NCBI GenBank assembly: GCA_019787685.1
Contig: JAHNUO010000001.1
Span: 806,001-870,000, forward strand
Direction of reading: 5' to 3'
Length of the DNA: 64,000 bases
DNA from: Chiua virens
Lineage: Eukaryota; Basidiomycota; Agaricomycetes; Boletales; Boletaceae
Below are positions 3,353 through 54,545 of the stretch, piece by piece. The position numbers and the translations under genes are program-made. Position 1 is the first letter of the stretch. Each line of letters starts with the position of its first letter. The notes under the pieces were generated by a model. It was given only the letters and a program-made list of their open reading frames with translations. It was not told where the DNA came from and searched no databases.

Positions 3353-6300
3353 CTATCCCCCTTCTGATGATTAGACTCCAGATAATCTGTTTCATAATTG
3401 AGACGATGGAGAACATCCTCATGTGTATTTTCAGTTTTATCGTCATAGGTTCGGAACATAGAGTTAAATTCAGTTTGTGTGACTTTTAGTTTTCTTGGGG
3501 CGTCTGGGTGTGCTTCATGGAAATCTGATATGAGATCCAGAGCATTTTTTAGATTCTTTAGTGGTTCCCAGGTTCTTTCGTCATCATCATAACCTTTCCA
3601 GTGTATGAGATATTCTAAGCGGCGTCCCTTCATTCAGGAATCGACAATATAGTCTGCTTCGAATTCTTCTTCTCGGTCATCTCCGATTACAACAGGGCGC
3701 GGTTTGTAAACCGGTTGTTCGGGAAGGTGTTCTTTATAGGGTTTGACCTGAGAAATATTTACAACTGGGTGTATTCGCATAGTGCATGGGAGTCGAAGCT
3801 TTGAGGCATTCGGTCCGTGCATGGATATTATGTCATAGGGTCCAATCCACTTGTCTGTGAATTTGGGGTGTTGTTTTATTTTTAAGTTTGCTGTAGAGAG
3901 CCAGACCTTGTCTCCGATAGAATAGGAGGGTAGTTCTGATCTCGATCTATCTGCAACGTTTTTCATATGTTCCGCGGCTGTATCTATATTAGATTTGGTT
4001 TGTTCTAGAACTTTGGAGAAATCCGTAATGTAGTTCTGAGCAGCCAGGTTTGTCATGGATTGTGGCATAATTCCCATCCTTGGGACATAGGAACATGTGA
4101 TTTCGAATGGTGAGAATTTAGTAGCAGTATGTTTCTTGCTGTTATATGAAAATTGTGCGAGAGGGAGCCAGTCAGCCCATGTGTTATCCTTTTCTGCACA
4201 GAACATGCGAAGGTATTGCTGCACTTCTCTATTCATTCATTCTGATTGTCCATCTGTTTGTGGATGATGTGCGGTGCTTAGTTTGGGTGTTATTTTTAAC
4301 CCTGAGCATATATCTTTCATAAGTTGGGAAGCGAATTGCAGTCCTCTATCTAATATGATGGTTTTAGGGAGGCTGTGATGTTTCCATATGTGTGAGAGAT
4401 ATAATTTAGCAAGATCCATAGATGAACACGTTTTGTGGCAAGGAATGAATTCGACTTCTTTAGAGAAGCGATCCATAACCATGAGAATGGAATCATAGGA
4501 GTGTGAAAGTGGGAGATCTGTGATGAAATCTGCTGAGATATCTTCCCATGGTAATGACGGTGTTTCTAAAGGTTGTAGAAGTCCTGTTGTCTTTTGATTG
4601 GAGCCTTTGAAACGAGCGCATCTTTCATAGTGTGAGACATAATTTTTGACTTCTTCATTCATTCGAGGCCATATGTAGGTTTGAGATAGAAGTTCTAAGG
4701 TTTTGTCGTAACCGGGGTGTCCGGCTTCAGGTGTGTCATGAAACATAGTGATGGATTTGGTGTGTAATATATCGGGAATGAAGATCCTACCCCCCTTTCT
4801 AAGGAAGTTGTCCTCGACTGTATATCCGATAGATAGTAGATGTTTCATGGCATTGGGTGATAACTTCATAGTTTCATGCTGTATATCAGACAGAAATTGG
4901 TCGCCATTATAGAGGAGAGTGACAGCTGATCTGATCTTGGATGGATCCATGAGAAGGATTCCTTTGTTATCGTCTTCAATTCTGATCATATGGTCCTCTC
5001 TCCTACTTAAAGTGTCAGCTTTTCCCATGGTGACTCCAGCCTTATGGTGCCAAGTGAGTTGAAGCATGAGAGATACTGTGCCCATCTTGCTTGTCTTTGG
5101 TTAAGATCTTGGTGTGTCATAAACCATGTAAGGTTCTGGTGGTCATTCCATATTTCAAATTCATGTTTTGCACCTTCAAGATAGTGGCACCATAGTTCTA
5201 GAGAGTGGATAACTGAGAGCATTTCTTTATCAGCTATCGGGTAGTTCCGTTCTTCTGGTGTCATAGAGTGGCTATTATAAGCAACAGGGTGCCAAAGTCC
5301 TTCTTTTTCTAAAGATAGAACTGCTCCCGTTGCGAAATCCAATGAATCGCATTCTAAGCGATATTTGGAGTTCTGATCTGGATCAGCAAGTATAGGGGCT
5401 GTCATAAATGCCTTTTTAAGCATAGTGAATGCTTCATCACAAGCGAAGGTCCATTCAAACTTCTGATCCTTTTTAGTGAGGTCATGTAATGGTCGTGCTA
5501 TTTTCCCATAATCTCTAATGAATCTGCAGTAGAAGTTGGCAAGTCCGAGGAAACTTCTGATGTGTTTGACTGATGTGGGAGTTGGCCATTCGGCTACTGC
5601 TTTGGTCTTTTCATTATCCATTTTAATCCCATCAGTTCCCACGATCATTCCGAGGAAGTCCACTTCTTTTACACGAAAGAAGCATTTTTCTGGTTTTACA
5701 TAGAGGTCATTATCTTGGAGGCGTTTAAGCACTTCGAGTACGATTTTGTCATGAGTTTCATAATCATCGGTGTTTGTGAATATCATAAGGTCGTCAATAT
5801 AGACAACAACAATACTGTTCATGTCGGCAAAGATCTCGTTGTAGGAGTCAATGACCCCTTGAGGTGATAAACCCGTGTTCCCGCTTTGTTTACAGGATGC
5901 CCAGATTGCCCATATCGATTGTCCTACCCGTCCGTCGTGGTCCCATGTCCATCCGAGTGGATCCAACCCATATTCGTATGTTTTGTTCTTCGTTCCTACA
6001 CGTTTTCGCGCGAGGTGACCGAATCAGGTTGCTCAATCAGGAACGCACGACGTACACTAATCAACTCTCTTTTGTCCAATTTCTATTTTATTTCGTACCT
6101 TCTTAGATTTTTTTTAGACGGTTCCGTGTTATCGACACGTATCCGATTGGTTATAAGGAATGGATAGTCGGGTCGTACGACATTTTAAAGGTAGTCCATT
6201 GATTCACGGATCAAACCTTATCCCATCTTGACAGAACATTGTTTTCCTTTTCACGGGTCAATCTCCATGAGAGTCGGCTCCGTATACGTATGCTTCCCTT

Positions 6301-8048
6301 ATTTATTCAATACTTTATCCGCTGTAAAAGTCCCAGGGAATACCTGAGACTATAAAATTTGTGTTCGTAAATAAAAATTTTATCTTTGGATCCCAGTTTT
6401 CTCTCGCGTTCTAAGTCACCTCACCTGTTTAACTATCTTTTCTATCCGCCCTTACTCGTACTCGATCACCGTTGTGCTCGAGTCTCTGCCTTGTCGCCAA
6501 ACTATCCGACTGTCCACGTTTCGGCCGGTTTTGTCGACCTTCATACGGTTTCACCCAGGAACGCGTCCGGATTGCTTTCAAAGCTCCTGTCAACGCCTTG
6601 ACACTTCGTCTCCAACCTCAGAACCCCTTGGGATGAGTCATACTCGCACCCATCCCTTTTCTTTCTATCTGACAGTTCTTCTAACCCTGTTCCTGTCACA
6701 CCAGCCCATTCTTTATTTCTTCATCGTTCATCATGGTTTGGAATGTGGCTGGGGAGTTACATAATCTGAAGTACATGATGATGGGTTCGAATGACCCTCG
6801 GTGGCAAACAAAAGCTGCTTTCCATTCATTGCCTTCTTTGATGCGTACATTGTTGTATCCCCATTGGAGATCCATTTTTGTAAATAGTTTAGCGTCTTTT
6901 AGTTTATACACAAGCTGTGATATAAGTGGCAAGGGATAGTTATTTTTGCTTGTATGTTCATTTAGGTATCGGTAATCCTGGACCATTCGTTTCTTTCCAT
7001 CCTTTTTAGGGACGAAGAAGACCAGAGATGTCTGTTTGGACTTAGAGGGTCTGATGTAACCTTTCTTTAATTGGTCATCAATAAATGTGGAGACCTCCTC
7101 TTGTTCTGTGACAGAGAGAGGTATTCAGTGACCCTTTTTAGGAATGAAAGACTCTTTGAGGTCAATGCTGTGGTCCCATGGTTTTCGTAATGGTATCCTT
7201 TCGGATTCCGTTTTTCCAAATACTTTAGCATATTTCATATATTCTCGTGGGACCATCTCTTCAAGAGTGTGTTCCTTAGGAGGAGTAGGTGGAGTTTCCA
7301 TGTTTGCGGTAAAAATATGAGATTCCACGATAGAGTTTGCATATTTAAGTTCTTCTGCAATAATGGAATCTAAGAAGTTGTCTTCGTCTTGCATGTGACA
7401 AGATTCCGGGCATCTCTGCATTACAACTGATCCTGTGGTCCAGTTTATATGGGGATTGTGGTGCTTTAACCAAGTATATCCGAGGATAAGGTCGTTCTTT
7501 CCAAGGTTGGTTATTTCGGCATCCACTATCTCTCTGTGACCTTTGTAATCAATCAGGATTTGTGTGGCGTGAGTAATAGAACCCGCTTGATTCTTGGTTC
7601 CATCGACATTGAAGACTTGAATGACATGGGGGAAAGTGTGTGTAGGAAGTTTATGTTTAGCGATGTAATCTTCGTGTATGAATATTGCATTTGCTCCACT
7701 ATCTAATAACACTTTTGCTCTGACATAACCAATTTGGTTTACTGGGGATACCAAAATTGGTAATACTATCTCTTTTTCTACCAATGCAGATCTAATGAAA
7801 GACCCATCGGGTATTTGTTTTGGGACAGACTTAAGCACGGAACTATTGTGTCCGCCATGCTCTGCAGAGACGCTGTCAACACTTTCATTTTCTGTTGTTT
7901 TTGGTGGTTTAGGTAGTTTATCCTCTTGCCAGGGAGGTGTTTCGGAATATTGAAAATCAAAGTTTAAAGAAATAGAGTTTTCATAGTACTTTGGAAGGGT
8001 AGTGCGAACGTGAGATCCCAGTTTACTCAGTTCGCCTTGCCTTTTCCC
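3298..8048 (-). pseudogene. Gypsy-1 copy A pol (broken)
   Basis: The same protein as the intact pol of copy B, in pieces. It has protease with LLDSGA (about 7700), RT with YIDD (about 5800), RNase H, integrase zinc finger and core (5000-4240), and a C-terminal chromodomain (3640-3540). In-frame TGA stops at 3634-3636 and 4237-4239 stand where copies B and C have CGA arginine codons. One base is missing near 5050 and a further stop lies near 7125. A T3 solo LTR interrupts RT at 5840-6723. The frame opens in the -1 register at the GGGAAAA site (8042-8048). Confidence 0.9.
5840..6723 (+). repeat. T3-family solo LTR in the RT of copy A
   Basis: 884 bp, TGTAGGAGTC...TTCTTCA, flanked by the 4-bp duplication TCGT (5836-5839 and 6724-6727). 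Removing it and one TCGT restores the RT sequence seen in copies B and C. It has a TATA box (ACTATAAAAT, about 6350) in a context shared with T1 and T2 (GAGACTATAAAA-like). The first bases form a hairpin, GGAGTC-AAT-GACCCC, with one mismatch. No internal coding sequence, hence solo. Confidence 0.9.
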
Positions 8049-8481
8049 TTCTTTTCAGTTTCGTATTTGTCATAATAATACACTTGTACTTCTTTGGGGT
8101 TCATTCCTCGGATGGCCGCGAAAGGGTCTTTTTCCGGGACTGAAGAAGTTGATGCTTTAGGGGCTTCTTTTTGTTGGGTGGTGGATCTCGCTTTTCGAGA
8201 TTTCCCACATGAGGCTTTGTGGTTGCCGGCATAGTATTTGCAGTCGGAGCACTGCACTTTGGGTTTGGGACATTCCTTTGGAATGTGCCCTGTATTCCCA
8301 CAATTGTAGCATTTATTATTGGGGTTGACCTTCTTTTGGCCAACTGCCCTGACTTGTTTGCCGGTAAACCAGCCATCTTCGTCAACTTAGCCAATGTCCA
8401 TTGCATTGGGGTCCTTTTTCTTAGTTCGTTCCCCACGGACATATTGGAGTTGCTCCAATGAATTTCCTGCCTGTCTTATCA

Positions 8482-8939: not shown

Positions 8940-8945
8940 GTGCGT

Positions 8946-9558
8946 TGAAGGTAATAAATCCCAGCTGTAGTGCAATACTCAGGGGGATTGAAAGAAATAG
9001 AAAGAGGGTGAAGGAATGCGATTCCGTTCAACCCAGGGACAACACTGAGTTGGTGAACGATGAATAATGGTTTTTGAGTAGTCCGAGATGAATCCGGGGG
9101 GAATCCGGATTAAAACGGATAGAAAAGCGGACGTGGCAGTCCAATCTGGATCGAGAAAACACAAGGAGAGCGAGAGAAAACAAATGTCAACCGAAAACAA
9201 TGTGAGACAGATGCACACGGGCAAAAGCTACTGTATTTTGTCAATACAGTGAATTTATAGTCCTTGGGAATATCCTCAGACTCATCCTAAGTAAGGATAA
9301 TAATAAAAAGAAGGTTTTCGTACGGTATAAAGTTTGAGAGGCACCCGAATGTCCCTGTAAGGGCTGCGTGACGTGGTCTAGCCAATGCTAAGTATGAATA
9401 AGGAGCATCGAAAATAAAATAAAAGAGTCCGAGGCAAAACGGGCACAGATACAGCAATCTGGATGAGTTCGCACAAGCAGACAGATCAGGATTGGGATTG
9501 GGTGACGACGGGGTGCGGAAATGTGCTATGCAAGCACAGGGAATACCTATTCCCTACA
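8946..9558 (-). repeat. T1-family solo LTR
   Basis: 613 bp, reverse orientation (the minus strand begins TGTAGGGAATAGG). Flanked by the 4-bp duplication GCGT (8942-8945 and 9559-9562). Terminal hairpin GGGAAT-AGGT-ATTCCC. TATA box region near 9245. Inserted in copy A gag. Confidence 0.92.
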
Positions 9559-9872
9559 GCGTTTTCCTTTTAGGCGAGATAACACGGCAAGTACGGCAGT
9601 GTATGAGCCGGGTGTGATAGTGTTTTGGTTTACATCTATCCATCCTTTAATTTTAGCCCACTATTCTTTGAATCAGGCCAGTTCTCCATCATAGGTTCCA
9701 GGGTCAGTGAAGATTTCGACCTTTCCCGTGGATTGGGGTTTATTTTGCAGTGCGGCGATAGCACTGCTCATGTGTGTAATGATAAATATGGCTGCTTGCA
9801 GCTGATCTGAATCTTTTTCGTTTTGGTCATTCATTGCCCGAGTCACATCTATGATATCTTGTTGTGACATGT

Positions 9873-10118: not shown

Positions 10119-10126
10119 AAATCTAT

Positions 10127-11300
10127 TTAGAGGTATTTGGAGGGGGTCCTAAGAGTATTTCTAGGACGTAATGAGGGGAATTCAAAGTTATCGTTGAAGG
10201 TAATATATCCCGGCTGTAGTGCAATACTCAGGGGGATTGAAAGAAATAGAAAGAGGGTGAAGGAATGCGATTCCGTTCGACCCAGGGACAACACTGAGTT
10301 GGTGAACGACGAATAATGGTTTTTGAGTAGTCCGAGATGAATCCGGGGCGAATCCGGATTAAAACGGATAGAAAAGCGGACACGGCAGTCCGATCCGGAT
10401 TGAGAAAATATGAGGAGAGCGAGAGAAAACGAATGTCGACCGAAAATGATGTGAGACAGATGCACACGGGCAAAAGATACTGTATTTTTGTCAATACAGT
10501 GAATTTATAGTCCTCGGGAATACCCTCAGACTCATCCTAAGTAAGGATAATAATAAAAAAAGAAGGTTTTCGTACGGTATAAAGTTCGAGAGGCACCCGA
10601 ACGTCCCTGCAAGGGCTGCGTGACATGGTCTAGCCAATGCTAAGTACGAATAAGGAGCATCAAAAATAAAATAAGAGAGTCCGAGGCAAATCAGGCGTGG
10701 ATACAGCAATCCGGATGAGTTCGCACAAGCAAACAGATCAGGATCGGGATCGGGTGACGACAGGGTGCGGAAACGTGCTATGCGAGCACAGGGAATACCT
10801 ATTCCCTACATCGTATTGTGGGTAGGGGCGGATGCGAGAGGGTATTAAATTTGCCCTGTATCATCTTTCTGCTCTTTTTCTCTGCAAAGCCATTCTATTG
10901 GCTATTCTCTCGATTTCTCTGGGTGGGAGCCAATCATTAGGGTCTCCTAAACTTTCCTCAGAGGGTTTCCTTTTAGGGATGGGTAACAGTTCTCTTTCAG
11001 GAAGGGGTGTGGGAAAGTATTCGCGCTTTACCTCAGCTTCCTCTGTTGGATACCTAAGCTCCGGGCTGTCAGACCGGGTTCACTCGTAGTCAGATAGGGA
11101 CGCGTCGTCTCCTATGAAGTGGCCTAGCAAGGCGTGAAAGATCTCTGTATCTGTCCTGTCCTCAGGATCAAGATCCTCTAAGGCAACTACCTCAGCGAGA
11201 TAGGCAGCATCAAGTACGTATGGTGAGTCTTCTAGACCCGGGAATGCTTCTTGAGTGGCGGCGACAATGGAGAGAGGGAGGGAAGTCACTATTTTTTGTG
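10127..11300 (-). pseudogene. Gypsy-1 copy A ORF1, split by a T1 LTR
   Basis: Homologue of ORF1 in copies B and C. The C-terminal end (…LRPRNTLRTPSKYL) is at 10127-10190 and the rest at 10811-11300, separated by the T1 LTR at 10195-10810. The conserved block EDLDPEDRTDTEIFHALLGH is at about 11120-11180. Further frame breaks occur upstream of the acidic part (near 11080). No in-frame ATG precedes it. Function unknown. Confidence 0.7.
10195..10810 (-). repeat. T1-family solo LTR
   Basis: 616 bp, flanked by the 4-bp duplication TCGT (10191-10194 and 10811-10814). Copy B keeps the equivalent unoccupied site (TTGTCGTATTG near 17161), so the insertion point is certain. Same terminal hairpin as other T1 copies. 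Confidence 0.93.
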
Positions 11301-20590: not shown

Positions 20591-21476
20591 TTACCCCCCT
20601 TCTGTGGTGAAGCATTTTGGATCGCAAGGAGGGAATTCAAAGAAGGATGAATCATATCAGTTATAAATCTTCCTGAACTCTAGGAATTCAGGGTCCATGA
20701 ACATTGGCAAGGGAGTAGGAAATGGGACATTGTGGCAGATAGGGCAATCATATGGTTTGTCAGTTTCCATGGATCAGGAAATGTGAATGTAAGGTCCATC
20801 AACTGCTTCCAGGTGTTCATGATGAAACTTCTGCACTGTAGGATCAGCATTTTTAAGATCTGTGATCTTCTTCCATTCATTCTCCTCTCTGGGGAATCCT
20901 TTCCAGGTGATGAGATATTAGATTACTTCTCTTTGTTCTCTGCTGTTGAGGATTTGTTTGATCTTATGTTCTAGGACAGCAGCTACAATGATAGAAGGTG
21001 GTAGAGACAGTTTCTTTGGGGATTTGAAAGTCCCTTTTATGTAAGGGTAGAGTAGACTTCCATGGAAGACCAGGTGGATTCCTTACCACTTCTTATCTAA
21101 TTGCAATTCATAGGCTGCACAACCTATTTTCTTGACAACTTTAAAGGGTCTGTATTGTTGGTCATTGAGCTTCTTCAAAAGTTGCTCAGTTTGGATATTG
21201 GTGGCCTCTAAGAGTACTAGATTGTTTTTTTGATACTCTTTTGAGGGCCTGACTGATCTGTCATAGAACCTTTTCATGTCTTCTTTTGCATGGCTAATGC
21301 AAAGGAGCTACTTCTCTTGATCTTTTTATCTTCTCAATGAATTCAGCAGCTGTCTGGTTTCATACCAGATTGTTCCTTAATGAAAATGGAAGGGGAGTGT
21401 CTGTAGTTCAACAAGAATGGTGAGTAGTGTGTTGCTAAAGTCATTGCATTGTTGTGAGCAAATTCAGCCATAGCGA
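20591..21476 (-). pseudogene. Gypsy-4 pol, integrase C-terminus and chromodomain
   Basis: The minus strand encodes an integrase C-terminal segment (MKRFYDRSVRPSKEYQKNNL, about 21080-21277) and a chromodomain-like block YLITWKGFPREENEWKK (about 20870-20925) followed by KNADPTVQKFHHEHL. The upstream integrase core is on the far side of the nested insertion at 45292-45545. The frame contains stops. This is a different Ty3/gypsy lineage from Gypsy-1, and the outermost element of the 20.6-45.5 kb stack. Confidence 0.75.
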
Positions 21477-22162
21477 TGTAGAAATGTAAAACAGGCTAGC
21501 ATGACAGGACTAGGATTGGTGGAACAGTCAGATAGAAAGAAAAGAGGTGGGTGTGAGTATGACTCATCCCAAGGGGGGTTATACTCAAAGGCAAAGAAGG
21601 ATTTGGGTTTGTCTAGGAGTCCTAGAGGCTGCTGAATGATCTGGAATGAAAAGCGGTTGATGAAAAAGTATCTGGGTGGAGTCAAGGTGATGAGAGGATT
21701 GATTCAAGTAGATGAAATGCAAAGAAATGATAGGATGAGGTAAAAGGAAGGCTATCCAGCCCACTCACACATGGGAAAGTAGACAGGTGATCTCCTGAAT
21801 GCAGAAAGATACTATTTTATATTAGAAAACATGGTTTTATAGTCCTGGGCACAACCCAGGACTGCTAAAGGCAATCTGACTCTAGGTAAGTGTACAGGAT
21901 CAATGTAGGGTGAGTATTTAAGAAAAGAAGTGTCAAACCTTGTAGATAACAAAAGGAAAGGAAGAGTAACAACTTTAATAAGGCCAAATCAAATAGAACA
22001 AGTTAAATCAGATGAAGCAGAATATGTATGATGAAACCAGATTGGATCGCGTTGACTCAGATTGGACTCGGATTGGACTCGGATTGGATTCAGATGATCT
22101 GTAAATGCTGGGAATGAAACTGGACTGACACAAAGTTGATGGTGGATGAGATGAGAGGTGAT
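21477..22162 (-). repeat. T2-family LTR, outer part (split by Gypsy-2)
   Basis: Runs from TGTAGAAATG at 21477 to the Gypsy-2 insertion; the remaining 62 bp after the duplication are at 45230-45291. Flanks are GCGA (21473-21476) and GTGA (45292-45295), a 4-bp duplication with one C/T change. The TATA region (ACTATAAAA on the minus strand) is near 21830. It lies inside Gypsy-4 integrase. Confidence 0.85.
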
Positions 22163-32553: not shown

Positions 32554-32557
32554 ATGG

Positions 32558-35142: not shown

Positions 35143-35622
35143 CCAATCCAACCGCCTTCACCCTCTTCAGATACGTCACTACCCGACTCATCCACCCCAT
35201 CACTCTCACCATCGACCACACCAGCCTTGCCACCTCTGTTACCTCGGATGACTATGAAGTCGCCATTGACAAACCTCATGCCACCACTCACCCATCCGTC
35301 GCATAGTACCGGATTGCAGCTCAGCAGATCGGCGTTTTTGGCTATGACAAAACGGCCAACCAGGCGCATACTCTCATCCCACTCACTTCCCTCTCACCCA
35401 CCTGGCTTAGCATGACCACCTCACTTGCCTCCAGAGGACATGACTGTTTTATCACCACTGGATCCGCCATCATCACCATCTGTTCGTGATAGCAGCACAC
35501 TGGCCATGTCACCGAAAACATCTATCCAGATAGCTCGGATCATGTTGGATCCATCACCACCTGCATTGCCCAGTTGGTCTCTCATCTCTAAAGCTGTCCC
35601 ATCGCCTATCATGTCTGAACCA

Positions 35623-36130: not shown

Positions 36131-36276
36131 TCCATTTCCCTCTCTCTCAATTTTACACTAACGCATACATCATTTCATTTCAGTTTATGCTTCAGCTGTC
36201 TCTGCCCACATCGGGTTTATTTGATGACCCGGCCGACACAGTTCGGTCGCATTTTCCCTTCGACCCGGGAATCTGA

Positions 36277-37124
36277 CTATTTCTTTTTTTTCACTATCAT
36301 CGAGATGCCCTCACCCTTTCTCCACAGCATTATCTGGATGACCGGGAGGTCATCAGATATGGCCTACCCAGGGGGGAGGGGTCTACAAGACCACCTTGGT
36401 TTCCACACGCAACTTTTCGCATTTTCACAATTTCAGTCATTGAAATCATTCTTTTGATATCCATTTCATCTCTGTTTCGTCCCCGGTATTCGTCCGGCAG
36501 ATCTCTATCTCACCCCGGGTTTAGTCTAGTGATCGATCATTACTCATCGAACAAGAAACCATCGCAGAAAAGAAAAGAATACCATATAGAAAAACCAACA
36601 CACGATCATATAGTCCATTCATTTCTTCTACCACTCAATTCACTACTTCGTTATTGCAATCATCTAGAGTTCGTGCCCTCATCCGCTACATACCACTTCT
36701 GCTCTTCGAATGCGCATACACACAATGCACTTTATCCGGTCGTATCTGGATCGTTTCCAGATGTTTTTAGGTATCACGAAAGGGCATCCATTGCAGGTAT
36801 AGACGTGAAAGACACACAATGAAGACCAGCCGAGTTGGACACTTGCCAATTGGTTTCATTTCGTTTTTTCTCTTTCTTATCATTTCTTTCACGTTCAACC
36901 ATACAGTTCTTTTTCTTCAAATTTGGATCACACAGCGAGCAGCGAGCAGTGGATAGCAAACTCGGCCGACCGGATCACATTGGATCACACCGGACACATG
37001 TGGACAAGCAGAATTCACGCAGGACAATTGATGCATACCAGAGATGCTATCACTGCGATGAACATGAAACCATCACACACACTTCGCATCGCAGATTACA
37101 GCCATCCTTCATACATCATGCCTT
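36277..37124 (+). other. T1 internal region without recognised genes
   Basis: Between the tandem repeats and Tc1-b. It has short open frames only, none with a motif I recognise. Confidence 0.4.
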
Positions 37125-37126
37125 TA

Positions 37127-38739
37127 CAGTAACCTCAAAAACCCTTTCCATACTAACTGCAACTGCAGTGCGCGAAGCACACTGCCAGACACTGTGGGAA
37201 TCTTGCTTAGGTTTAGTGAAGTTATAAATAGCATGTACTCTCAGCTACAAATCAGCCCCCAAGATCATGTGATTTGGTTCACACACCATTAAGATATGAT
37301 CATTTTGAAACAGCCATGTCATGGAAAGGGTTTTTGAGCTTTTGAAATCACAAGGGTATTTGGGTATTATTAGTACTTGGTATAGCCTCCTTTGGCTTTA
37401 AGCACTGCCTGAACCCTCCTAGGCATGCTCTCAATCAATTTCTGACACTCCTCAACTGGTATCCTCTCCCACTCCATCTGAACTCTTTCCCACAACTCAT
37501 GAATCCCATTAGGAGGGTTTTCATGCTCTGCAAGCCTCCTTTTAAGCCATCCCCAGAGATGTTCTATAGGGTGTAGGTCAGGAGACTGTGCAGGCCAACC
37601 TATGGTATCAAATTCCTGCTCCTCTAGCCATTCCTTGATCTTCTTGCAGGTGTGCTTGGGATTATTGTCTTGCTGAAAGATGGTATCAGGAGGATTGAAA
37701 CCATAATACTCCAATGTTTGCTTCAGCTCATCCTTCAAAATCTGAAGTTAGAGGTCCCCATCCATCCTACCATCAATCTTGGAAGCAAATCCAACACCCT
37801 CCCAAGTCATACAGCCCCACATTATCAGAGAACCTCCCCCAAACTTGAGGGTCCCATTTACCAGCCTATCACTAAGCCCCTCACCTAACCTTTTCCAAGC
37901 CCATTTATGCCCATCTGACCCTAGGCAATTGATTTTGGTCTCATCAGACCATATTACCTTCTTCCAGTCCTCTACAGTCCAATCCTTGTGGGCATAAGCA
38001 AAATCCAAACGAGCCTTGCAATGCCTAGCAGAAAGAATAGGGCGTTTGAACTTGACCACAGCTTTTATACCAGATTTCTTCAAATGCAGATAAACTGTAC
38101 TGACAGAGAGAGGTTCATTGATGATATTGGAGAGAGCTTTGGTCACTTGGACAGCATTTTCAGCTCTGCCAGAGGTGATAAGGTGCTGGGCATGACGAAT
38201 GTTGGCAGGAGAAAGCTTGGAAGGATGACCTCCAATAGCTTTGGGAAGGGTAGAATGCTTCTTGGAGCAAAGTTTAGATATAGCAGAAGGGCTGAGACCA
38301 GTTTGCTTGGCAATGGCTTCACCATAGTGGCCAGCATCAAGCAAAGAAAGAATAGTGTTTTGCTAAGTGAGAGAGAGGGATTTAACCATGATAGTAGCTC
38401 AGAATTAAGAAGTGTGTGAACTTTTTTAAACTCAGACATGCTATTTACATGTATATCCTTGTTTGCATTAACAAATAATGACAAATATTGAATGATTTGA
38501 TTGAGATCCTAATTATCATTTCAAAAGCTCAAAAACCCTTTCCATGACATGGCTGTTTCAAAATGATCATATCTTAACAGCGTGTGAACCAAATCACATG
38601 ATCTTGGGGGCTGATTTGTAGCTGAGAGTAAGTGCTATTTATAACTCCACCAAAGCTAAGCAAGATTCCCACAGTGTCTGGCAGTGCGCAAAGTGCACTG
38701 CAGTTGCAGTTAGTATGGAAAGGGTTTTTGAGGTCACTG
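37127..38739 (-). mobile_element. Tc1-b, Tc1/mariner element in the T1 element
   Basis: 1,613 bp, TA duplications at 37125-37126 and 38740-38741, ends CAGT...ACTG. About 220-bp inverted repeats, each carrying CTCAAAAACCCTTTCCAT at the outer end and, inverted, at the inner end (37131-37151, 37320-37338, 38528-38545, 38715-38734). Related to Tc1-a in transposase but with different repeat sequences. Confidence 0.95.
37370..38389 (-). pseudogene. Tc1-b transposase (two stops)
   Basis: Start ATG 38387-38389. Helix-turn-helix (NTILSLLDAGHYGEAIAKQT), DDE core with WSDETKINCLGSDG, FQQDNNPKHTCKKIKEWL and SPDLHPIEHLWGWLKRRL, i.e. DD34E. Ends KGGYTKY. A TAG after SLT at about 38364 and a TAA for TAC tyrosine near 37746 interrupt it. 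The Tc1-a copy is intact at both of these positions, so the two copies have independent lesions. Confidence 0.92.
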
Positions 38740-38834
38740 TATGTGCGAGACGATAGACGACAGACACACAGAAAAGCCATGCGTCACACCGTCGTGATCA
38801 CTATCCAATCCTGTCATTCGCGGATCATCGTCAC

Positions 38835-39010
38835 TGCACCGCTATCACCAGTCATCATTGTTGTTCCTGTCGTTTTCAGGTCATCATCACTGTGCAGTCA
38901 CCATCACTCTCATTGTCATCATCATCTCTGTTGTCATCTCCATTGTCGTCTCTGTCATTACTATCATCACTCTCATCGCTGTCATTGTCTCTGTCAACGT
39001 ATCTGTCACC
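38835..39010 (+). repeat. Low-complexity TCA/CAT-rich tract
   Basis: Pyrimidine-rich strand with irregular TCATCA, CATTGTC and CTCTGTC repeats, just inside the T1 3' LTR. The apparent open frames across it are compositional. Confidence 0.7.
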
Positions 39011-39125
39011 CTTCTGTATCCGAACCCATCCACTGCCATCTGCAACTGTCACGTTGAACTACCGATCGCATCCCCATACACATCGGGCTGACTGGGGACA
39101 GTCAGCATCTAAAGTCCCCGTCGGG

Positions 39126-39744
39126 TGTAGGGAATAGGTATTCCCTGTGCTCGCATAGCACGTTTCCGCACCCTGTCATCACCCGATCCCAATCCTGATC
39201 TGTCTGCATGTGCAAACTCATCCGGATTGCTGTATCCATGCCCATTTTGCCTTGGACTCTTTTATTTTATTTTTGATGCTCCTTATTCATACTTAGCATT
39301 GGCTAGACCATGTCACACAGCCCTTGCAGGGACGTTTGGGTGCCTCTCGAACTTTATACCATATGAAAACCTTCTTTTTATTATTATCCTTACTTATGTA
39401 GGATGAGTCTGAGGGTATTCCCGAGGACTATAAATTCACTGTATTGACAAAAATACAGTAGCTTTTGCCCATGTGCATCTGTCTCACATCGTTTTCGCTC
39501 AACATTTGTTTTCTCTCGCTCTCCTCGTGTTTTATCAATCCGGATTCGGACTGCCGTGTCTGCCTTTCTATCTGTTTTAATCCGGATTCCCCCCGGATTC
39601 ATCTCAGACTACTCAAAAACCATTCCTCATCGTTCACCAACTCAGTGTTGTCCCTGGGTCAAACGGAATCACATTCCTTCACCCTCTTTTCTATTCTTTC
39701 AATCCCCCTGAGTATTGCACTACAGCCGGGATTTATTACCTTCA
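39126..39744 (+). repeat. 3' LTR of the T1 element
   Basis: 619 bp, close match to 33606-34219 with small indels (for example TTATGTAGG versus TTAGG near 39395). Followed by duplication CCGG. No clear polypurine tract is visible upstream. Confidence 0.95.
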
Positions 39745-39748
39745 CCGG

Positions 39749-44646: not shown

Positions 44647-44648
44647 AC

Positions 44649-45224: not shown

Positions 45225-45291
45225 GTGATAGGACATGATGGTGAGTGAGGAAAAGGTATCCTGCAACTGTAAGGAGTATCTAACTCCTACA
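45225..45291 (-). repeat. T2 LTR, distal fragment
   Basis: GTGATAGGACATGATGG...CTCCTACA: the remaining end of the T2 LTR begun at 21477. The first five bases are the Gypsy-2 target duplication. Confidence 0.88.
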
Positions 45292-45545
45292 GTGAGCCAC
45301 TCTGTCCAGTCTGTCTGTCTGTGGTTCACATACAATCTAAGGTATTGTTCTATTTTGGTGTTTACTCACTTAGTTTGTCCATCCATCTAATGGGTTTCCT
45401 TCTATGGAAAGGCTTTTGTAGAACTCTTTCATGAATGATGAAATGAAGTTTGATCCTTAATCTGAGATAACCTTTTTGGGAGCACTGTGGAGCTTGAAAA
45501 TGTGTTCTACAAAGATTTTTGCTACTTCTATAGTGGTGATATCTG
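45292..45545 (-). pseudogene. Gypsy-4 pol, integrase core fragment
   Basis: Minus strand reads TTIEVAKIFVEHIFKLHSAP then KKVISD*GSNFISSFMKEFY: integrase core around the second catalytic Asp, with one stop (TAA in place of probable CAA). Directly continues the integrase C-terminal part at 20591-21476 once the nested elements are removed. Confidence 0.75.
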
Positions 45546-45567
45546 TGTTGATTGGGAATAGTCTTAT

Positions 45568-46499: not shown

Positions 46500-46892
46500 G
46501 ACCATTCTTATGCTGCCATTGAAGTGGCAAACCTGGATATCAAGCTTATCCAAGTCAAGGAACCACCTGTGAGTCTCTATCTACTGTATAATGTCTGTAC
46601 ACTAACACAGCGCAGAAATTAGGCAACATGTTCGACAATATGCCACCCCTGGCATCCCCGAAAGCCAAGGATAGTTGAAACAAACTAGACAGGTACTTGA
46701 AGGCTGACATAGAGCACATAGCTGATGCACTAGCATGGTGGAATGAGCAACAGGCCACATATCTGTGTCTATCATGAATGATGTCAGATTATCTTAGTAT
46801 TCCAGGTAAGTCTGTTCATGTGCTTCTTCTACCTGCTCATCCTTTCCCTAGCAACTTCAATTGATGTTGAATAGCTTTTTAGCTGTGGACAT
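46500..46892 (+). pseudogene. hAT transposase C-terminal region, first part
   Basis: Reads MPPLASPKAKDS*NKLDRYL, ADIEHIADALAWWNEQQATY, MMSDYLSIPG, then a 49-nt intron (about 46805-46853) and ATSIDVE*LFSCG. This is the hAT dimerisation region (W-W, Y-P-x-L-S-x2-A-x-D-Y-L-x-I, then A-T-S-x-x-x-E-R-x-F-S). Two stops. It continues at 54387. Confidence 0.75.
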
Positions 46893-47307
46893 TGTAGGAA
46901 ATAGGTATTTCCTGTGCTCACATAGCACTTTCTGCACCTCATCGTCACCCAATCCTAATCCTGATCTGTCTGCTTGTGCAAACTCATCCAGATTGCTGTA
47001 TCCATGCTCATTTTGCCTTGGACTCTTTTATTTTATTTTTATTGCTCCTTCTTCATACTTAGCATTGGCTAGACCACATCACACAGCCCTTGCAGGGATG
47101 TTCAGGTGCCCCTCAAACTTTATACCATACAAAACCTTCTTTTTATTATTATCCTTACTTAGGACAAGTCTGAGGGTATTCCCAAGGACTATAAAACTCA
47201 CTGTATTGACAAAATACAGTAGCTTTGCCCATGCACATCTGTCTCACATTGTTTTCGGTCAACGTTTGTTTTCTCTCGCTCTCCTCATATTTTCTTGATC
47301 CAGATTC
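46893..47307 (+). repeat. T1-family LTR, first part (split by Gypsy-1 copy C)
   Basis: TGTAGGAAATAGG...CCAGATTC; the rest is at 54190-54386. Flanks ACAT (46889-46892) and ATGT (54387-54390) fit an original ACGT with one deamination on each side. Solo LTR, no internal region. Confidence 0.88.
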
Positions 47308-47739
47308 TGAAACAACCTAGAACAACCTAGACTGTTAAAGTTGTAGTGGTGTAGTGAAGAGGGGGTTCAGTCCAGTGAAGAGGCGAAAACTCCAAGAGAA
47401 CTTTGTTAGAGCTCTCTGGTTGTCATTCATGGGGTTTATATACTACATGGATATCGGAGTTCTAATCTGAGTATGAACTACGTAGATAAGCATAATGTAT
47501 CCTATTGGATGATAAGGTGTGAATTGATATGAGTCATAGATAAGAGCATAGCCTTGCACTGCCGATGATGAGTCAGTGATAAGGGAAATGAAAAGATAAG
47601 AGGCATGTGTTGATGGATGCTGTGTTATTGTGGCAGCCAATCGGATATGATCCTTTGGACAGCCTTGACATGAGGCATTTATATTTAGAATCGATTGAAT
47701 GTTGGAGTTGAGAAGTGAGGAAAAGTTGGTATCGTAACA
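47308..47739 (-). repeat. 3' LTR of Gypsy-1 copy C
   Basis: 432 bp, TG...CA; polypurine tract at 47740-47750 (minus strand AAGGGGGATAG). The pol stop lies inside it at 47685. Confidence 0.97.
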
Positions 47740-50700
47740 CTATCCCCCTTCTGTTGATCAGACACCGAATGATCTATTTCATAATTGAGACGATGGAGAC
47801 TATCCTCATCTTCGTTCATAGTTTTATCGTTATAAGTTCGGAACATAGAGTTGAATTCGGTTTGTGTGACTTTTAGTTTTCTTGGGGCGTCTGGATGTGC
47901 TTCATGGAAGTCAGAGATAAGATCCGGTGCATTTTTTAGATTTTTTAGGGGTTCCCAAGTTCTTTCGTCATCATCATAACCTTTCCAGTGTATGAGATAT
48001 TCTAAGCGGCGTCCCTTCATTCTGGAGTCAACGATGTATTCCGCTTCGAATTCTTCTTCTCGGTCATCTCCGATTACTATAGGCCGTGGTTTATAAACCG
48101 GCTGATCGGGCAGGTGTTCCTTATAAGGTTTGACCTGAGAGATATTTACGACTAGGTGTATTCTCATGGTTCGTGGGAGTCGAAGCTTTACAGCATTCGG
48201 TCCATGCATGGAGATTATGTCATAGGGTCCAATTCATTTATCCGTAAATTTTGGATGTTGTTTTATTTTTAGGTTTGTCGTAGAGAGCCAGACCTTATCA
48301 CCAACCGAATAGGAGGGAGGTTCTGATCTCGATCTGTCTGCGGTGTTTTTCATATTTTCCGCGGCTTTATCTATATTAGATTTGGTTTGTTCTAGAACTT
48401 CGGAGAAATCCATAATGAAGTTCTGAGCAGCTGGGTTTTTCATGGAATGTGGTATAATTCCCATCCTAGGGACGTAGGAACGTGTGATTTCGAATGGTGA
48501 GAATTTAGTGGCAGTGTGTTTCTTGCTGTTATAGGAGAATTGTGCGAGAGGAAGCCAATCGGCCCATGTGTTATCTTTCTCAGCACAGAACATGCGAAGA
48601 TACTGTTGCACTTCTCGGTTCATTCGTTCCGATTGTCCATCTGTTTGTGGATGATGTGCAGTACTTAGTTTGGGTGTTATCTTTAACCCTGAGCATATAT
48701 CTTTCATGAGTTGGGAAGCGAATTGTGGTCCTCTATCTGATATGATGGTTTTAGGGAGGCCATGATGTTTCCATATGTGTGAGAGATATAATTTAGCGAG
48801 ATCCATAGATGAGCACGCTTTGTGGCATGGAATGAATTCGACTTCTTTCGAGAAGCGATCCACAACCGTGAGAATGGAATCATAGGAGTGTGAAAGTGGG
48901 AGATCTGTGATGAAATCTGCTGAGATATCTTCCCATGGTGATGACGGTGTTTCTAAGGGTTGCAGGAGTCCTGCTGTTTTCTGATTAGAACCCTTGAAGC
49001 GAGCGCATCTTTCACAGTGTGAGACATAATTTTTGACTTCTTCGTTCATATGAGGCCAAATGTAGGTGCGTGATAGAAGTTCTAAAGTTTTGTCATAACC
49101 GGGATGTCCTGCTTCCGGTGTATCATGAAACATAGTAATAGATTTAGTGCGTAAAGCATCGGGAATGAAGATCCTATCCCCCTTTCTAAGGAAGGCGTCC
49201 TCGACTTTATATCCGATAGATAGTAGGTGTTTCATGGCATTAGGTGATAATTTCATAGTTTCATGTTGTACGTCAGATAAGAATTTATCACCATTGTAGA
49301 GGAGAGTGACGGCTGATCTGATTTTAGATGGATCCATCAGAAGGATTCCTTTGTTATCATCTTCGATTCCGGTCATGTGATCTTCTCTTCTACTTAAGGC
49401 ATCTGCTTTTCCCATAGTGACTCCAGCCTTGTGGTGCCAAGTGAAGTTAAAGCGTGAGAGATATTGGGCCCATCTTGCTTGTCTTCGGTTAAGATCTTGG
49501 CGTGTCATAAACCATGTAAGGTTCTGGTGATCATTCCATATTTCAAATTCATGTTTTGCACCCTCAAGATAGTGGCGCCATAGTTCTAGAGATCGGATAA
49601 CCGAGAGCATTTCTTTATCGGCTATTGGGTAGTTCCGTTCTTCTGGTGTCATAGAGTGGCTATTGTAAGCGACAGGGTGCCAAAGTCCTTCTTTTTCTAG
49701 AGATAGAACTGCTCCCGTAGCGAAATCCGATGAATCGCATTCTAAGCGATATTTGGCATTCTGATCCGGATAAGCTAGAATAGGGGCTGTCGTAAAAGCC
49801 TTTTTAAGCATAGTGAACGCTTTGTCACAAGCGAAAGTCCATTCGAATTTTTGATCCTTTTTAGTAAGGTCGTGTAAAGGTTGTGCTATTTTTCCATAAT
49901 CTTTAATGAATCTGCGATAGAAGTTGGCAAGTCCAAGGAAACTTCTGATGTGTTTGACTGATGTGGGAGTTGGCCATTCGGCTACTGCTTTGGTCTTTTC
50001 GTTATCCATTTTAATCCCATCAGTTCCCACGATCATTCCGAGGAAATCGACTTCTTTTATGCAGAAGAAGCATTTTTCTGGTTTTACGTAGAGGTCGTTC
50101 TCTTCGAGGCGTTTAAGCACTTTGAGTACGATCTTGTCATGAGTTTCATAATCGTCAGTGTCGGTAAAGATCATAAGGTCATCGATATAGACGACAACAA
50201 CTCCGTTCATATCGGCAAAGATTTCGTTCATCATAGTTTGGAACGTTGCTGGTGAGTTACATAATCCAAAGTACATGACGATGGGTTCGAAAGAACCTTG
50301 GTGGCAGACGAAAGCTGCTTTCCATTCATCGCCTTCTTTGATGCGTACGTTATTGTATCCCCATCGGAGATCCATTTTCGTAAAAAGCTTAGCGTCTTTT
50401 AATTTATCCACAAGTTGCGAAATAAGGGGCAAGGGGTAGTTATTCTTGCATGTGTGTTCGTTTAGGTATTGGTAATCCTGAACCATACGCTTCTTTCCAT
50501 CTTTCTTTGGTACGAAGAAGACTGGAGATGTCTGTTCGGACTTAGAGGGTCTGATGTAACCTTTCTTTAATTGGTCATCAATAAAAGCCGAGACCTCCTC
50601 TTGTTCTGTGACAGAGAGGGGTATTAAGCGACCCTTTTTGGGAATGAAAGACTCTTTTAGGTCAATGCTGTGATCCCATGGTTTGCGTAATGGTATCCTT

Positions 50701-51545
50701 TTGGATTCCGTTTTTCCAAATACTTTAGCATATTTTAAATATTCTCGTGGGACCATCTCTTCAAGAGTGCGTTCCTTAGGAGGAGAAGGTGGAGTTTCCA
50801 TGTTTGCGGTAAAAATACGAGATTCCACGATAGAGTTTGCATATCTAAGTTCTTCTGCGATAATGGAATCCAAGAAATCGTCTTCTTCTTGAGAATGACA
50901 TGATTCGGGACATCTCCGCATTACAACCGATCCTGTGGACCAATCTATATGGGGATTGTGGTGCTTTAACCATGTATATCTGAGGATAAGGTCGTTCTTT
51001 CCAAGGTTGGTAATTTCAGCATCCACTATTTCCCTGTGTCCTTTGTAGTCAATCAGGATTTGTGTGGCGTGAGTAATAGAACCCGCTTGATTCTTGGTTC
51101 CATCGACATTAAAGACTTGTATGGCGTGAGGTAGCGCGTGTGTGGGAAGTTTATGCTTAGCAACGTAATCCTCGTGTATGAAGATCGCATTAGCTCCACT
51201 GTCAAGAAGCGCTTTTGCTCCAACATAACCAATTTGGTTTACTGGGGATACCAAAATTGGTAAAATAATTTCTTTTTCTACCGATGTAGATCTAATGAAA
51301 GACCCATCAGGTATTTGTTTTGGGACAGAATTAAGCACGGAACTATTGTGTCCGCCGCGCTCCGCAGAGACGCTGTCAACGCTTTCGTTTTCTGTTGTTT
51401 TTGGTGATTTAGGTAGTTTATCCTCTTGCCGGGGAGGTTTTTCGGAGTATTTGAAATCGAAGTTTAGTGAAATAGAGTTTTCATATGATTTTGGAAGGGT
51501 GGTGCGAATGTGAGATCCCAGTTTACTCAGTTCGCCTTGCCTTTT
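47685..51545 (-). pseudogene. pol: Gypsy-1 copy C Pol with a single stop
   Basis: Same domain order as copy B: protease LLDSGA, RT with YIDD (about 50185), RNase H, integrase zinc finger and D,D35E core, chromodomain (about 47950-48030). One TGA at 48234-48236 replaces the TGG tryptophan in KWIGPYD. It separates the integrase core from its C-terminal part and the chromodomain. A truncated Pol would keep all catalytic domains but lack the targeting chromodomain. Enters from gag in the -1 register at 51542-51548. Confidence 0.95.
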
Positions 51546-52714
51546 CCCTTTCCGTTCTTGTTTTCATACATGTCGAAGTAGTATGCTTGTACTTCCTTGG
51601 GGGACATCCCTCGGATGGCGGCAAAGGGGTCTTTAGCCGGTACAGATGGGGAAGTGGTGGTAGTAGAAGATATTGTTTTCTTCTCTTCCTTGTTTGTCGT
51701 GCGGACTTTGCGCGAACATTGCATTTTATGAGATCCGCCGTACCACTTGCATTCGCTGCACTGGTTTTTTGGTTTGGTGCACTCATTGGTTCTGTGACCT
51801 GCACCGCTGCAGTTATAGCATTTGTTTGAGTTATTGGTCTTCTTTTGACCAAATGCTCTGACTTCTTTTCCTGTGAACCAGCCATCTTCGTCTCTTTCGG
51901 CGTAAGTGACTTGGCCAATGTCCATAGCGTTGGGATCTTTATACTTTTTATAGCAGTCTGGTCGCACGTAGTTAAGTGCTTCCATGGCATTTCCCGCTGT
52001 TCGGATCCAGGAAAGGTAGGTGATGACCGCGTGATCGCGGTCAGGTTCATATTCTGCGTGTTTGGGGTCCATGTACATGGGATGGAAGGGGTCTACCCTG
52101 TGCCTGTCACGGAAGATCTGATAGATGATGGAGTGGGCAGTGTTTGCCTCCAGGAGTCTTATCGCATGGGTAGGGTCAATGTGTGCTTGTAGCCACAGAG
52201 CTTCCCATTGGACGATATAGTCCTCTACTCTCATTGTTCCTTGTTTTAGATTTTCTAATTGGGATCTAGCCCAATCAACCTTGTTGTTTTGTCGGAACAT
52301 CCCTTCGATGTCCTGTACTAGTGTTGCCCATGTGAGGGCGGAGCCTTTAGCTAAGCGCGTTTCTGCGAATTGTGCCGCTTTCTTTCCTTTTAACTGTGAG
52401 AGTACGGCTTGCACGGCCCTGTATGAGCCCTTGGGAATGGCGAGATTGTTTACTTCGAGCCATCCTTTCATTTTGGCCCACCATTCTTCGAATTTGGCCA
52501 TTTCTCCATCATATGACCCTGGGTCTGCGAAGATTTCGACTTTAGAGGATGAGGCTGCCGCTTGGGGGGGTATGACCGGTAAGGCATTGAGTTGCCCCTC
52601 TAGGGCAGCGATGAGGGTTGCTTGCTCTGCAACGAGGATGAATGCGGCTTGTAGCCGGTCTCCATTTGTGCGAGAAGCGTCGTTTAGAACTCCGAGCGCA
52701 GTGTGGTAATCCAT
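51527..52714 (-). CDS. gag: Gypsy-1 copy C Gag, intact
   Basis: 395 codons from ATG 52712-52714 (MDYHTALGVLND). The N-terminal helical part, then a capsid-like region (EEWWAKMKGWLEVNNLAIPK, QLENLKQGTMRVEDYIVQWE), zinc knuckle CYNCSGAGHRTNEC at about 51800, a Cys-rich CSECKWYGGSHKMQC and a Lys/Gly-rich tail. Structural protein that packages RNA in cytoplasmic particles, by family knowledge. It is the only intact Gag in the window and could supply copy B in trans. Confidence 0.95.
   Translation of the reverse strand: MDYHTALGVLNDASRTNGDRLQAAFILVAEQATLIAALEGQLNALPVIPPQAAASSSKVEIFADPGSYDGEMAKFEEWWAKMKGWLEVNNLAIPKGSYRAVQAVLSQLKGKKAAQFAETRLAKGSALTWATLVQDIEGMFRQNNKVDWARSQLENLKQGTMRVEDYIVQWEALWLQAHIDPTHAIRLLEANTAHSIIYQIFRDRHRVDPFHPMYMDPKHAEYEPDRDHAVITYLSWIRTAGNAMEALNYVRPDCYKKYKDPNAMDIGQVTYAERDEDGWFTGKEVRAFGQKKTNNSNKCYNCSGAGHRTNECTKPKNQCSECKWYGGSHKMQCSRKVRTTNKEEKKTISSTTTTSPSVPAKDPFAAIRGMSPKEVQAYYFDMYENKNGKGKGKAN
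51542..51548 (-). promoter_or_regulatory. Probable -1 frameshift site GGGAAAA (copy C)
   Basis: Same heptamer and position relative to the gag stop as in copies A and B. Confidence 0.7.
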
Positions 52715-52731
52715 ATTTATTTTTTGGTTAT

Positions 52732-52977
52732 TTACCAGGCGTCAGTTGCTGGTTCTGGTGCTCCCCAAGCGTTAGCGGTTGCTGTACCGTATTCTTCGTA
52801 GGGTGAGAATAATCCGAAGGTTACTGCAAAGGGGTAGTCTCGTCGTTTGATAGAGACGTAAATTGGTCTTTGCGATTCTTGTACCTTGTTTGTAAGGTAG
52901 AATGCGATGTAGCCAAAGAAGTAGGTGGTGAGAGTACAGGAGATGATGAGTGCAATTGCAACGAGTTCCCAAGACAT
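52732..52977 (-). CDS. Gypsy-1 copy C ORF2, small membrane protein
   Basis: 81 codons, ATG at 52975-52977. One hydrophobic segment (residues 5-28, LVAIALIISCTLTTYFFGYI), then QRPIYVSIKRRDYP, FGLFSPYEEY and an acidic tail ending DAW. 14 nt after the ORF1 stop and 17 nt before gag. Nearly identical to copy A ORF2, strongly different from copy B ORF2. No known domain. Topology would put the N-terminus on one side and the acidic tail on the other side of a membrane. Confidence 0.72.
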   Translation of the reverse strand: MSWELVAIALIISCTLTTYFFGYIAFYLTNKVQESQRPIYVSIKRRDYPFAVTFGLFSPYEEYGTATANAWGAPEPATDAW

Positions 52978-52991
52978 ATACAGATTTCTAT

Positions 52992-53519
52992 TTAGAGGTA
53001 TCTGGAGGGGATCCTAAGAGTATTTCTAGGTCGTAAGGAAGGGAATTCGAAGATATCATATTGGGAATAGGGGCGGATGCGAGAAGGGACCTGGTTAGCT
53101 TTGTAGCACCTAAGTATTCTTTTTCTTTCTAAATCCGTCCTAGCGTTTCTCCTTTCTATCTCATGAGGTGGGAGCCAATCGTTTGGGTCTCCTAAACTTT
53201 CCTCTGATGGTTCTCTTTCGGGAATGGGAGCGGGAAAATATTCGCGCTTGACCTCAGTTTCCTCGGTTGGATACCTAAGTTCCGGGCTGTCGGACCGGGT
53301 TGACTCTCGTTCACTAGAGTAGTCTGGGAGCGAAGAATCGTCTCCTAAAAAGTGCCCTAATAGAGCATGGAAGATTTCCGTATCTGTACGGTCTTCTGGG
53401 TCGAGATCCTCGAGAGCAACTACTTCTGCGAGGTAGGCGGCATCAAGAACGTAAGGCTCTTCCTTGATGTCGGGGAAGGCTTCTTGAGCGGCGGCGATGA
53501 TGGATAAGGGTAGAGACAC
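52992..53519 (-). CDS. Gypsy-1 copy C ORF1, unknown function
   Basis: About 175 codons from a conserved GTG (53517-53519). No in-frame ATG: the frame opens five codons upstream after a TGA, and I found no ATG at all in the leader between the expected RNA start (about 53850) and this frame. Contains EDLDPEDRTDTEIFHALLGH, an acidic Ser-rich middle and an Arg-rich end. Start mechanism unresolved; product therefore provisional. Confidence 0.6.
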   Translation of the reverse strand: MSLPLSIIAAAQEAFPDIKEEPYVLDAAYLAEVVALEDLDPEDRTDTEIFHALLGHFLGDDSSLPDYSSERESTRSDSPELRYPTEETEVKREYFPAPIPEREPSEESLGDPNDWLPPHEIERRNARTDLERKRILRCYKANQVPSRIRPYSQYDIFEFPSLRPRNTLRIPSRYL

Positions 53520-53739
53520 TGATTGGGCAGGTCAGTTAAGGCCTCCTTTCTGGTCAAGGGTGCGCTATCTGCTTCTGCGTATGCTAGACCTTGAGTCTTT
53601 TGCAAATCGTCTTATTGGGAGCAGATGTTCCAACTACTTTTCAAACTTGGGACTTACTTGGGCCCGGTTGTGTTATTTTGTAGTAGGGGCTACGACGAGG
53701 TTGGGACTTGACAGTAGTCGATCAACGGCGAAGATAAAC

Positions 53740-53750
53740 AACAAAGTTCT
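53740..53750 (-). other. Self-priming primer binding site of copy C
   Basis: Minus strand AGAACTTTGTT two bases inside the 5' LTR, complementary to AACAAAGTTCT in the LTR (about 53842-53852). Confidence 0.85.
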
Positions 53751-53752
53751 AA

Positions 53753-54184
53753 TGAAACAACCTAGAACAACCTAGACTGTTAAAGTTGTAGTGGTGTAGT
53801 GAAGAGGGGGTTCAGTCCAGTGAAGAGGCGAAAACTCCAAGAGAACTTTGTTAGAGCTCTCTGGTTGTCATTCATGGGGTTTATATACTACATGGATATC
53901 GGAGTTCTAATCTGAGTATGAACTACGTAGATAAGCATAATGTATCCTATTGGATGATAAGGTGTGAATTGATATGAGTCATAGATAAGAGCATAGCCTT
54001 GCACTGCCGATGATGAGTCAGTGATAAGGGAAATGAAAAGATAAGAGGCATGTGTTGATGGATGCTGTGTTATTGTGGCAGCCAATCGGATATGATCCTT
54101 TGGACAGCCTTGACATGAGGCATTTATATTTAGAATCGATTGAATGTTGGAGTTGAGAAGTGAGGAAAAGTTGGTATCGTAACA
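53753..54184 (-). repeat. 5' LTR of Gypsy-1 copy C
   Basis: 432 bp, TATA box at about 53880 (minus strand TATATAAA). No difference seen from the 3' LTR. Confidence 0.97.
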
Positions 54185-54189
54185 GATTC

Positions 54190-54386
54190 AGACTGCCATG
54201 TCCACTTTTCTATCCATTTTAATCTGGATTCACCCTGGATTCATCTCAGACTACTCAAAAACCATTTCTCATCATTCACCAACTCAGCGTTGTCCCTAGG
54301 TCAAACAGAATCGCATTCCTTCACCCTCTTTTCTTTTCTTTCAATCCCCCTGAGTATTGCACTACAGCTGGGATTTATTACCTTCA
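54190..54386 (+). repeat. T1-family LTR, second part
   Basis: Continues 46893-47307 to the TTACCTTCA end. The 5-bp GATTC before it is the copy C duplication. Confidence 0.9.
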
Positions 54387-54545
54387 ATGTCTCATGCTCT
54401 TGCATGTCCATTCTGGACTGTCGGCACAATCAAGCTGTGCATTGTTGTGCCTTGGCACATGGTCAACCTGGAGGGTGTAGCCAAACTCCCTGATTTGAAA
54501 GAGGAGGAGAATTTATGGAGTGGCTGGGATGCTATTAGTGTACTA
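54387..54545 (+). pseudogene. hAT transposase C-terminus, second part
   Basis: Reads LMLLHVHSGLSAQSSCALLC then LGTWS, matching the hAT C-terminal pattern ...R-L-S-A-x-S-x-R-A-L-x-C-L-G-x-W. Continues 46500-46892. Stops follow. Confidence 0.75.

Follow-up and report, generated by a model that had tools for sequence, protein, structure and literature searches.

Three LTR retrotransposon families of the fungus Chiua virens insert preferentially at 4-bp sites centred on CG

Why do three families of long terminal repeat (LTR) elements, here called T1, T2 and T3, lie between 4-bp target-site duplications (TSDs) that read N-CG-N or a deaminated form of it? The question is raised by a stretch of 64,000 nucleotides of Chiua virens (contig JAHNUO010000001.1, positions 806,001 to 870,000), hereafter the window, which belongs to a 48.3-Mb assembly of 136 contigs. 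Repeat analysis of the window showed that T1, T2 and T3 are genuine repeat families. A sequence-only reading of the window had listed eight of their duplications and suggested a shared, CpG-recognising integrase. All eight were found letter for letter when the window was re-read (Table 1), and the tally given for them is correct: five pairs with an intact CG, one CG/TG, one with decay in both copies, and one TG/TG.

The CG-centred insertion pattern is genuine and genome-wide. Outer 5' junctions were collected from the assembly with a pattern consisting of a purine, six free bases and the 5' LTR word; the purine, at position -7, rules out the inner side of 3' LTRs. The listed junctions (T1, 100 of 156 matches; T2, 100 of 130; T3, 47 of 47) include only copies with the exact 5' LTR word and this purine. 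Their central dinucleotide is CG in 158 cases out of 247, CA in 50, TG in 37, another one in 2 and TA in none. By family, the centres are CG 70, CA 18, TG 11 and CT 1 for T1; CG 57, CA 22, TG 20 and AG 1 for T2; CG 31, CA 10 and TG 6 for T3. CG, CA or TG is thus found in 99/100, 99/100 and 47/47 junctions, respectively (245/247 in total), and in 221/223 when identical 7-mers are collapsed within each family. The background used is the window itself, which is rich in transposable elements, and not random genome: CG, CA and TG together make up 18.2% of its dinucleotides and CG alone 3.3% (CpG observed/expected, 0.63). Against this background, the binomial log10 P is about -177 for the 245 CG/CA/TG centres and about -166 for the 158 CGs. 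The central enrichment that the sequence-only reading predicted for genome-wide logos was therefore obtained. At the neighbouring dinucleotide positions -6, -5, -4 and -2, CG occurs in 2, 11, 0 and 0 of the listed junctions.

The outer bases of the site are variable and biased. Among the 158 CG-centred sites, T is first in 14 (versus 34% before window CGs) and A is last in 18 (versus 31% after window CGs); TCGA does not occur. The commonest sites are CCGG (24/158) and ACGT (23/158). This symmetric pattern is what would be expected of a two-fold intasome.

According to paired junctions and LTR decay, most CA and TG sites are CGs mutated after insertion. For 76 insertions, the outer junction was read on either side; LTRs having one inner side were left out. 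The sample includes best-match LTR copies (among them 20 of 40 in each of two families' lists), 20 of the first 26 places found with the junction pattern, five full-length T1 elements and the window copies; the LTRs of full-length T3 elements were not matched up as pairs. The outer TSD bases agree in 68 of the 76 insertions (clean pairs); the remaining eight appear to be recombinants or old copies. The clean pairs are CG/CG (34), CG/CA (10), CG/TG (9), CA/CA (7), CA/TG (4), TG/TG (2), CG/TA (1) and CT/TG (1); 19 of them combine CG in one copy with CA or TG in the other. Solo T1 LTRs contain 56.7, 47.3 and 32.0 CpG per kb when zero, one and two TSD copies are decayed (n = 22, 8 and 5; P = 0.0006). 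In all three families, C/T differences between LTR copies, counted per cytosine, are concentrated at CpG: 0.162 versus 0.009-0.043 elsewhere for T1, 0.261 versus 0.030-0.079 for T2 and 0.055 versus 0.009-0.021 for T3.

Empty sites were sought with joined flanks and were found as paralogues carrying one target copy. For the T3 site of the window, the empty state with a single TCGT is seen in three paralogous Gypsy copies, all with a CG centre. At least one CG-centred paralogue was found for each of T1b, T2a, L004, L008, L009, L011, L012 and L022 (L numbers designate individual copies). Only TG or CA was found for T1c, L021 and T2c; the paralogue centres of L023 are CA/AG- or TG-like. Chance was also considered as the origin of the CG pattern; pair agreement and the empty sites led to its rejection.

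Could the integrase simply need a flexible pyrimidine-purine (YR) centre, in the manner of foamy viruses, CG, CA and TG all being genuine targets? All but 2 of the 247 listed centres are YR, and one young insertion (L033) and the ATGG site of T2c could be true TG targets. Moreover, a YR centre is favoured by retroviruses whose duplications are 4 bp long, with T disfavoured as the first base and A as the last (PMC4422553). However, TA does not occur in the listed junctions, although its share of YR steps predicts about 54 cases; CG accounts for 158 of the 245 CG/CA/TG centres versus 18% of these dinucleotides in the window; and the one-sided CG/CA and CG/TG pairs point to decay. A mere YR requirement is therefore considered improbable.

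Two contrasts within the genome bear on the source of the CG rule. A genome search with the T3 integrase returned T3 copies, a sister family (about 50% identity) and ordinary Gypsy elements (about 25%). The sister integrase is 52% identical to that of T3, and the sister family also makes 4-bp duplications (ATTC, AATG and ACGC in three readable pairs). The centres of its 10 listed flanks, two of which share the same 7-mer, are GT (3), TT (2) and TA, AT, AA, CA and CG (one each), i.e. CG in 1/10. The family appears young, because its open frames across the integrase reach 2003 aa (genome C10:1298110, C27:368098, C25:404604 and others) and its 3' ends are 95-99.7% identical among the three copies compared. 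The second contrast is provided by Gypsy elements with 5-bp duplications, said in the earlier reading to lack CG; of the six duplications listed there, the two re-read (GCTAC and GATTC) were correct. Of 63 matches to a family of this type, 41 correspond to the inner side, and the other 22, which are outer flanks, have no CG at any of seven positions. The CG therefore cannot be put down to the genome or to the 4-bp cut, and the CG rule is lineage-specific. One residue difference is D-N-G-P in T3 versus D-N-G-T in the sister family. The differing residue (P versus T) aligns with Ala188 of prototype foamy virus (PFV) integrase, which reportedly contacts target bases (PMC4422553); this position is a candidate determinant of target choice, as a lead only.

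Tethering to methylated or CpG-rich chromatin, rather than the integrase, might bring insertions near CpGs. Several insertions do sit in other transposable elements, and CpG decay hints at methylation of repeats. Tethering by itself, however, gives no base-pair register, whereas CG lies in a single fixed register in 158/247 junctions, the neighbouring dinucleotides being nearly devoid of it, and a sister family in the same genome does not follow the rule; this explanation is very improbable. That CG is part of the element end, or an alignment or assembly artefact, can practically be dismissed: 3' LTRs of T1 and T3 likewise read ...CGGG on their inner side and could mislead a careless alignment, but that side is shut out by the purine at -7, the outer bases differ among insertions and agree within the insertion in the clean pairs, and empty sites carry a single target copy.

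T3 is an autonomous Ty3/Gypsy element. Its LTR (TGTAGG...CTTCA, with TG...CA ends) is followed by a tRNA-type primer-binding site (PBS), AC-TGGAGCCC; LTR pairs are about 9.2-10 kb apart, for an element of about 10 kb. In the copy L049, the gag frame (814 aa) encodes DUF4100 and an aspartyl protease, with a zinc knuckle below threshold. The pol frame (1174 aa) has RT_RNaseH and Integrase_H2C2 above the Pfam cut-offs and RVT_1 and rve just under them, in the order reverse transcriptase, RNase H, integrase. The best PDB match is Ty3 Gag-Pol for T3 pol and PFV integrase for the integrase sequence. A search of the integrase C-terminus with E values up to 1 gave no chromodomain match, the sole match being a weak one to SH3_Tf2-1; judged by the C-terminal chromodomain, T3 falls outside the chromovirus branch. 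It is not of the Ginger1 type, since it has direct LTRs and a reverse transcriptase. A pattern search of viral contigs for relatives gave 8 matches, none of which was confirmed.

T1 and T2 have T3-like LTR ends and a PBS with the same AC-TGGAGCCC start. T1 interiors span 3.2-4.5 kb (seven measured), and their gag-like open reading frame (ORF) matches T3 gag over 65 aa; no T3-pol match was found within the T1 interiors fetched. In the window element T1c, the PBS ACTGGAGCCC follows the 5' LTR and precedes the gag-like ORF, with a gag match to T3 at 34564-34758 and a nested transposon-like insert inside. The T2 interior read, that of L110, which contains a nested T1 LTR, has a gag-like ORF 44% identical to T3 gag over 179 aa and no T3-pol match. 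T1 and T2 thus appear, from the interiors read, to be gag-carrying LTR elements without pol, which would need a helper. They probably borrow a T3-type integrase, and T3 is the likely donor, because it has pol whereas T1 and T2 have related gag without pol and the same PBS.

Insertion almost only at CG-capable centres points to a sequence rule built into the integrase. Very probably, a T3-type integrase needs a central CG, T1 and T2 use the same or a close enzyme, and CpG decay follows. This integrase would carry out a 4-bp staggered strand transfer with CG as obligatory central dinucleotide and would disfavour sites that begin with T or end with A. It would be supplied by T3 pol and would itself read CG; T3 would mobilise T1 and T2, whose integration would rely on this enzyme or a very similar one. 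Once an element is in place, the CpG of each duplication copy would become TpG or CpA alongside the CpGs of the LTR, yielding the mixture of CG, TG and CA. The shared CpG-recognising integrase of the sequence-only reading is thereby supported by the genome-wide pattern, the one-sided pairs (19/68) and the contrast with the sister and 5-bp Gypsy families; its sharing among T1, T2 and T3 is deduced from T3 pol, related gag and the common PBS.

Several points weigh against this scheme. Two listed junctions have a centre other than CG, CA or TG (CT in T1, AG in T2). The relation of LTR CpG content to TSD decay is in the same direction as in T1 but not significant for T2 (P = 0.34) and T3 (P = 0.08). 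Decayed pairs are of the same type in 9 cases and mixed in 4 (P = 0.27), an excess that leaves room for a few per cent of genuine TG/CA targets. L033 is a young TG/TG insertion with CpG-rich LTRs. T2c (31841) has ATGG on both sides and a paralogous empty site with ATGG (L034), which fits either a true TG target or older decay; some TG targets, such as L033 and T2c, may thus be genuine. The absence of a T3-pol match from T2 relates to one interior, and the predicted structure of the T3 integrase (two sequences; mean predicted local distance difference test score, 37.7) was unusable and was dropped.

The decay of LTR CpGs, together with three partial DNA-methyltransferase matches above the cut-off in the genome, makes CpG methylation in the host plausible. 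It is conceivable, though rather unlikely, that the T3-type integrase reads 5-methyl-CpG, steering T3 and two hitchhiking families into already methylated repeats, and that this specificity post-dates the split from the 52%-identical sister.

CG-centred targeting is a known phenomenon; T1-T3 add a clear case to it, and one that brings its own, useful internal control. The Phygy clade of Physcomitrella patens, Ty3/Gypsy elements without chromodomain, shows an NCGN insertion preference (Neumann et al. 2019, PMC6317226). T1-T3 also prefer NCGN, and T3 has no chromodomain match. Unlike T1-T3, Phygy comes from a moss and is called species-specific (PMC6317226). Ginger1 DNA transposons use CCGG (75%) or CCGT/ACGG (24%) sites (Bao et al. 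2010, PMC2836005). They share with T3 a Gypsy-type integrase (a transposase in Ginger1), 4-bp duplications with a central CG and TGTNR ends; they differ in being DNA transposons with terminal inverted repeats and a narrower site (PMC2836005), whereas the outer bases of T1-T3 vary widely. The Drosophila errantivirus ZAM targets CGCGCg, and site binding was shown in vitro (PMC2527525, PMC5408687). Like T3, it belongs to the Ty3/Gypsy group and has a sequence-specific integrase with a CG-containing palindromic target (PMC2527525, PMC5408687); unlike ZAM sites, those of T1-T3 have variable outer bases and do not conform to CGCGCg, and the ZAM host is an insect. Retroviruses with 4-bp duplications, such as PFV, share with T1-T3 the YR centre and the disfavoured outer bases, but show a preference (PMC4422553), whereas T1-T3 have a near-absolute CG without TA. 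In plants, the centre of 4-bp duplications is GC-rich when these are taken as a group (PMC6911290), and a 2017 review describes strong sequence specificity of LTR-retrotransposon integrases as exclusive to errantiviruses (PMC5408687). In searches of open-licence PMC papers, no report was found of NCGN targeting in fungi, of such pol-less hitchhikers or of the sister contrast.

Some neighbouring features concern the insertions themselves. A 5'-truncated T3 LTR (in 8479-8945) ends at 8939, and the GCGT duplication of T1a starts two bases on (GTGCGT); T1a was therefore inserted at or beside a T3 target site. Elsewhere, the T1 copy L011 (contig C35) sits within the pol gene of a T3 element and the T1 copy L012 (contig C15) within the LTR of a different T1 copy, so that the families insert into one another. 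L002 (contig C28) and L003 (contig C88) are one T1 copy with identical near flanks on both contigs, i.e. either a segmental duplication or an unmerged haplotype. A DNA-transposon-like unit is present in two copies (37125-38741, within the T1 element 33606-39744, and 24951-26981), with a related coding stretch between inverted repeats of about 220 bp (arm identity, 93.8% and 99.5%). We take it to be Tc1/mariner-like from the appearance of its D-D-E-like ORF.

Table 1. T1, T2 and T3 insertions of the window and their TSDs. Positions are those of the window; TSDs (left/right copy) are as re-read there.
Feature	Position	Strand	Description
T3 TSD	left 5836..5839, right 6724..6727	.	TCGT/TCGT
T3 solo LTR	5840..6723	+	884 bp; ends TGTAGGAG...CTTCA
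T1a TSD	left 8942..8945, right 9559..9562	.	GCGT/GCGT
T1a solo LTR	8946..9558	-	613 bp; orientation set by PBS and gag ORF of full elements
T1b TSD	left 10191..10194, right 10811..10814	.	TCGT/TCGT
T1b solo LTR	10195..10810	-	616 bp
T2b TSD	left 21473..21476, right 45292..45295	.	GCGA/GTGA
T2b solo LTR	left piece 21477..22162, right piece 45225..45291	-	23-kb nest between the pieces
T2a TSD	left 22733..22736, right 23456..23459	.	GCGC/GCGC
T2a solo LTR	22737..23455	-	719 bp
T2c TSD	left 31837..31840, right 32554..32557	.	ATGG/ATGG
T2c solo LTR	31841..32553	-	713 bp
T1c TSD	left 33602..33605, right 39745..39748	.	CCGG/CCGG
T1c full-length T1 element	33606..39744	+	5' LTR 33606-34219; 3' LTR 39126-39744
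T1d TSD	left 46889..46892, right 54387..54390	.	ACAT/ATGT
T1d solo LTR	46893..54386	+	split by nested Gypsy element (about 47304-54185)

Few LTR-retrotransposon integrases have a strong sequence specificity. Here a near-absolute CG rule is found beside a sister family that has the same 4-bp cut but does not follow the rule, in one genome, which makes the residue basis of target choice directly testable. The targeting of CpG coincides with the probable CpG methylation of the host, and the two target copies, as they decay, act as a built-in clock.

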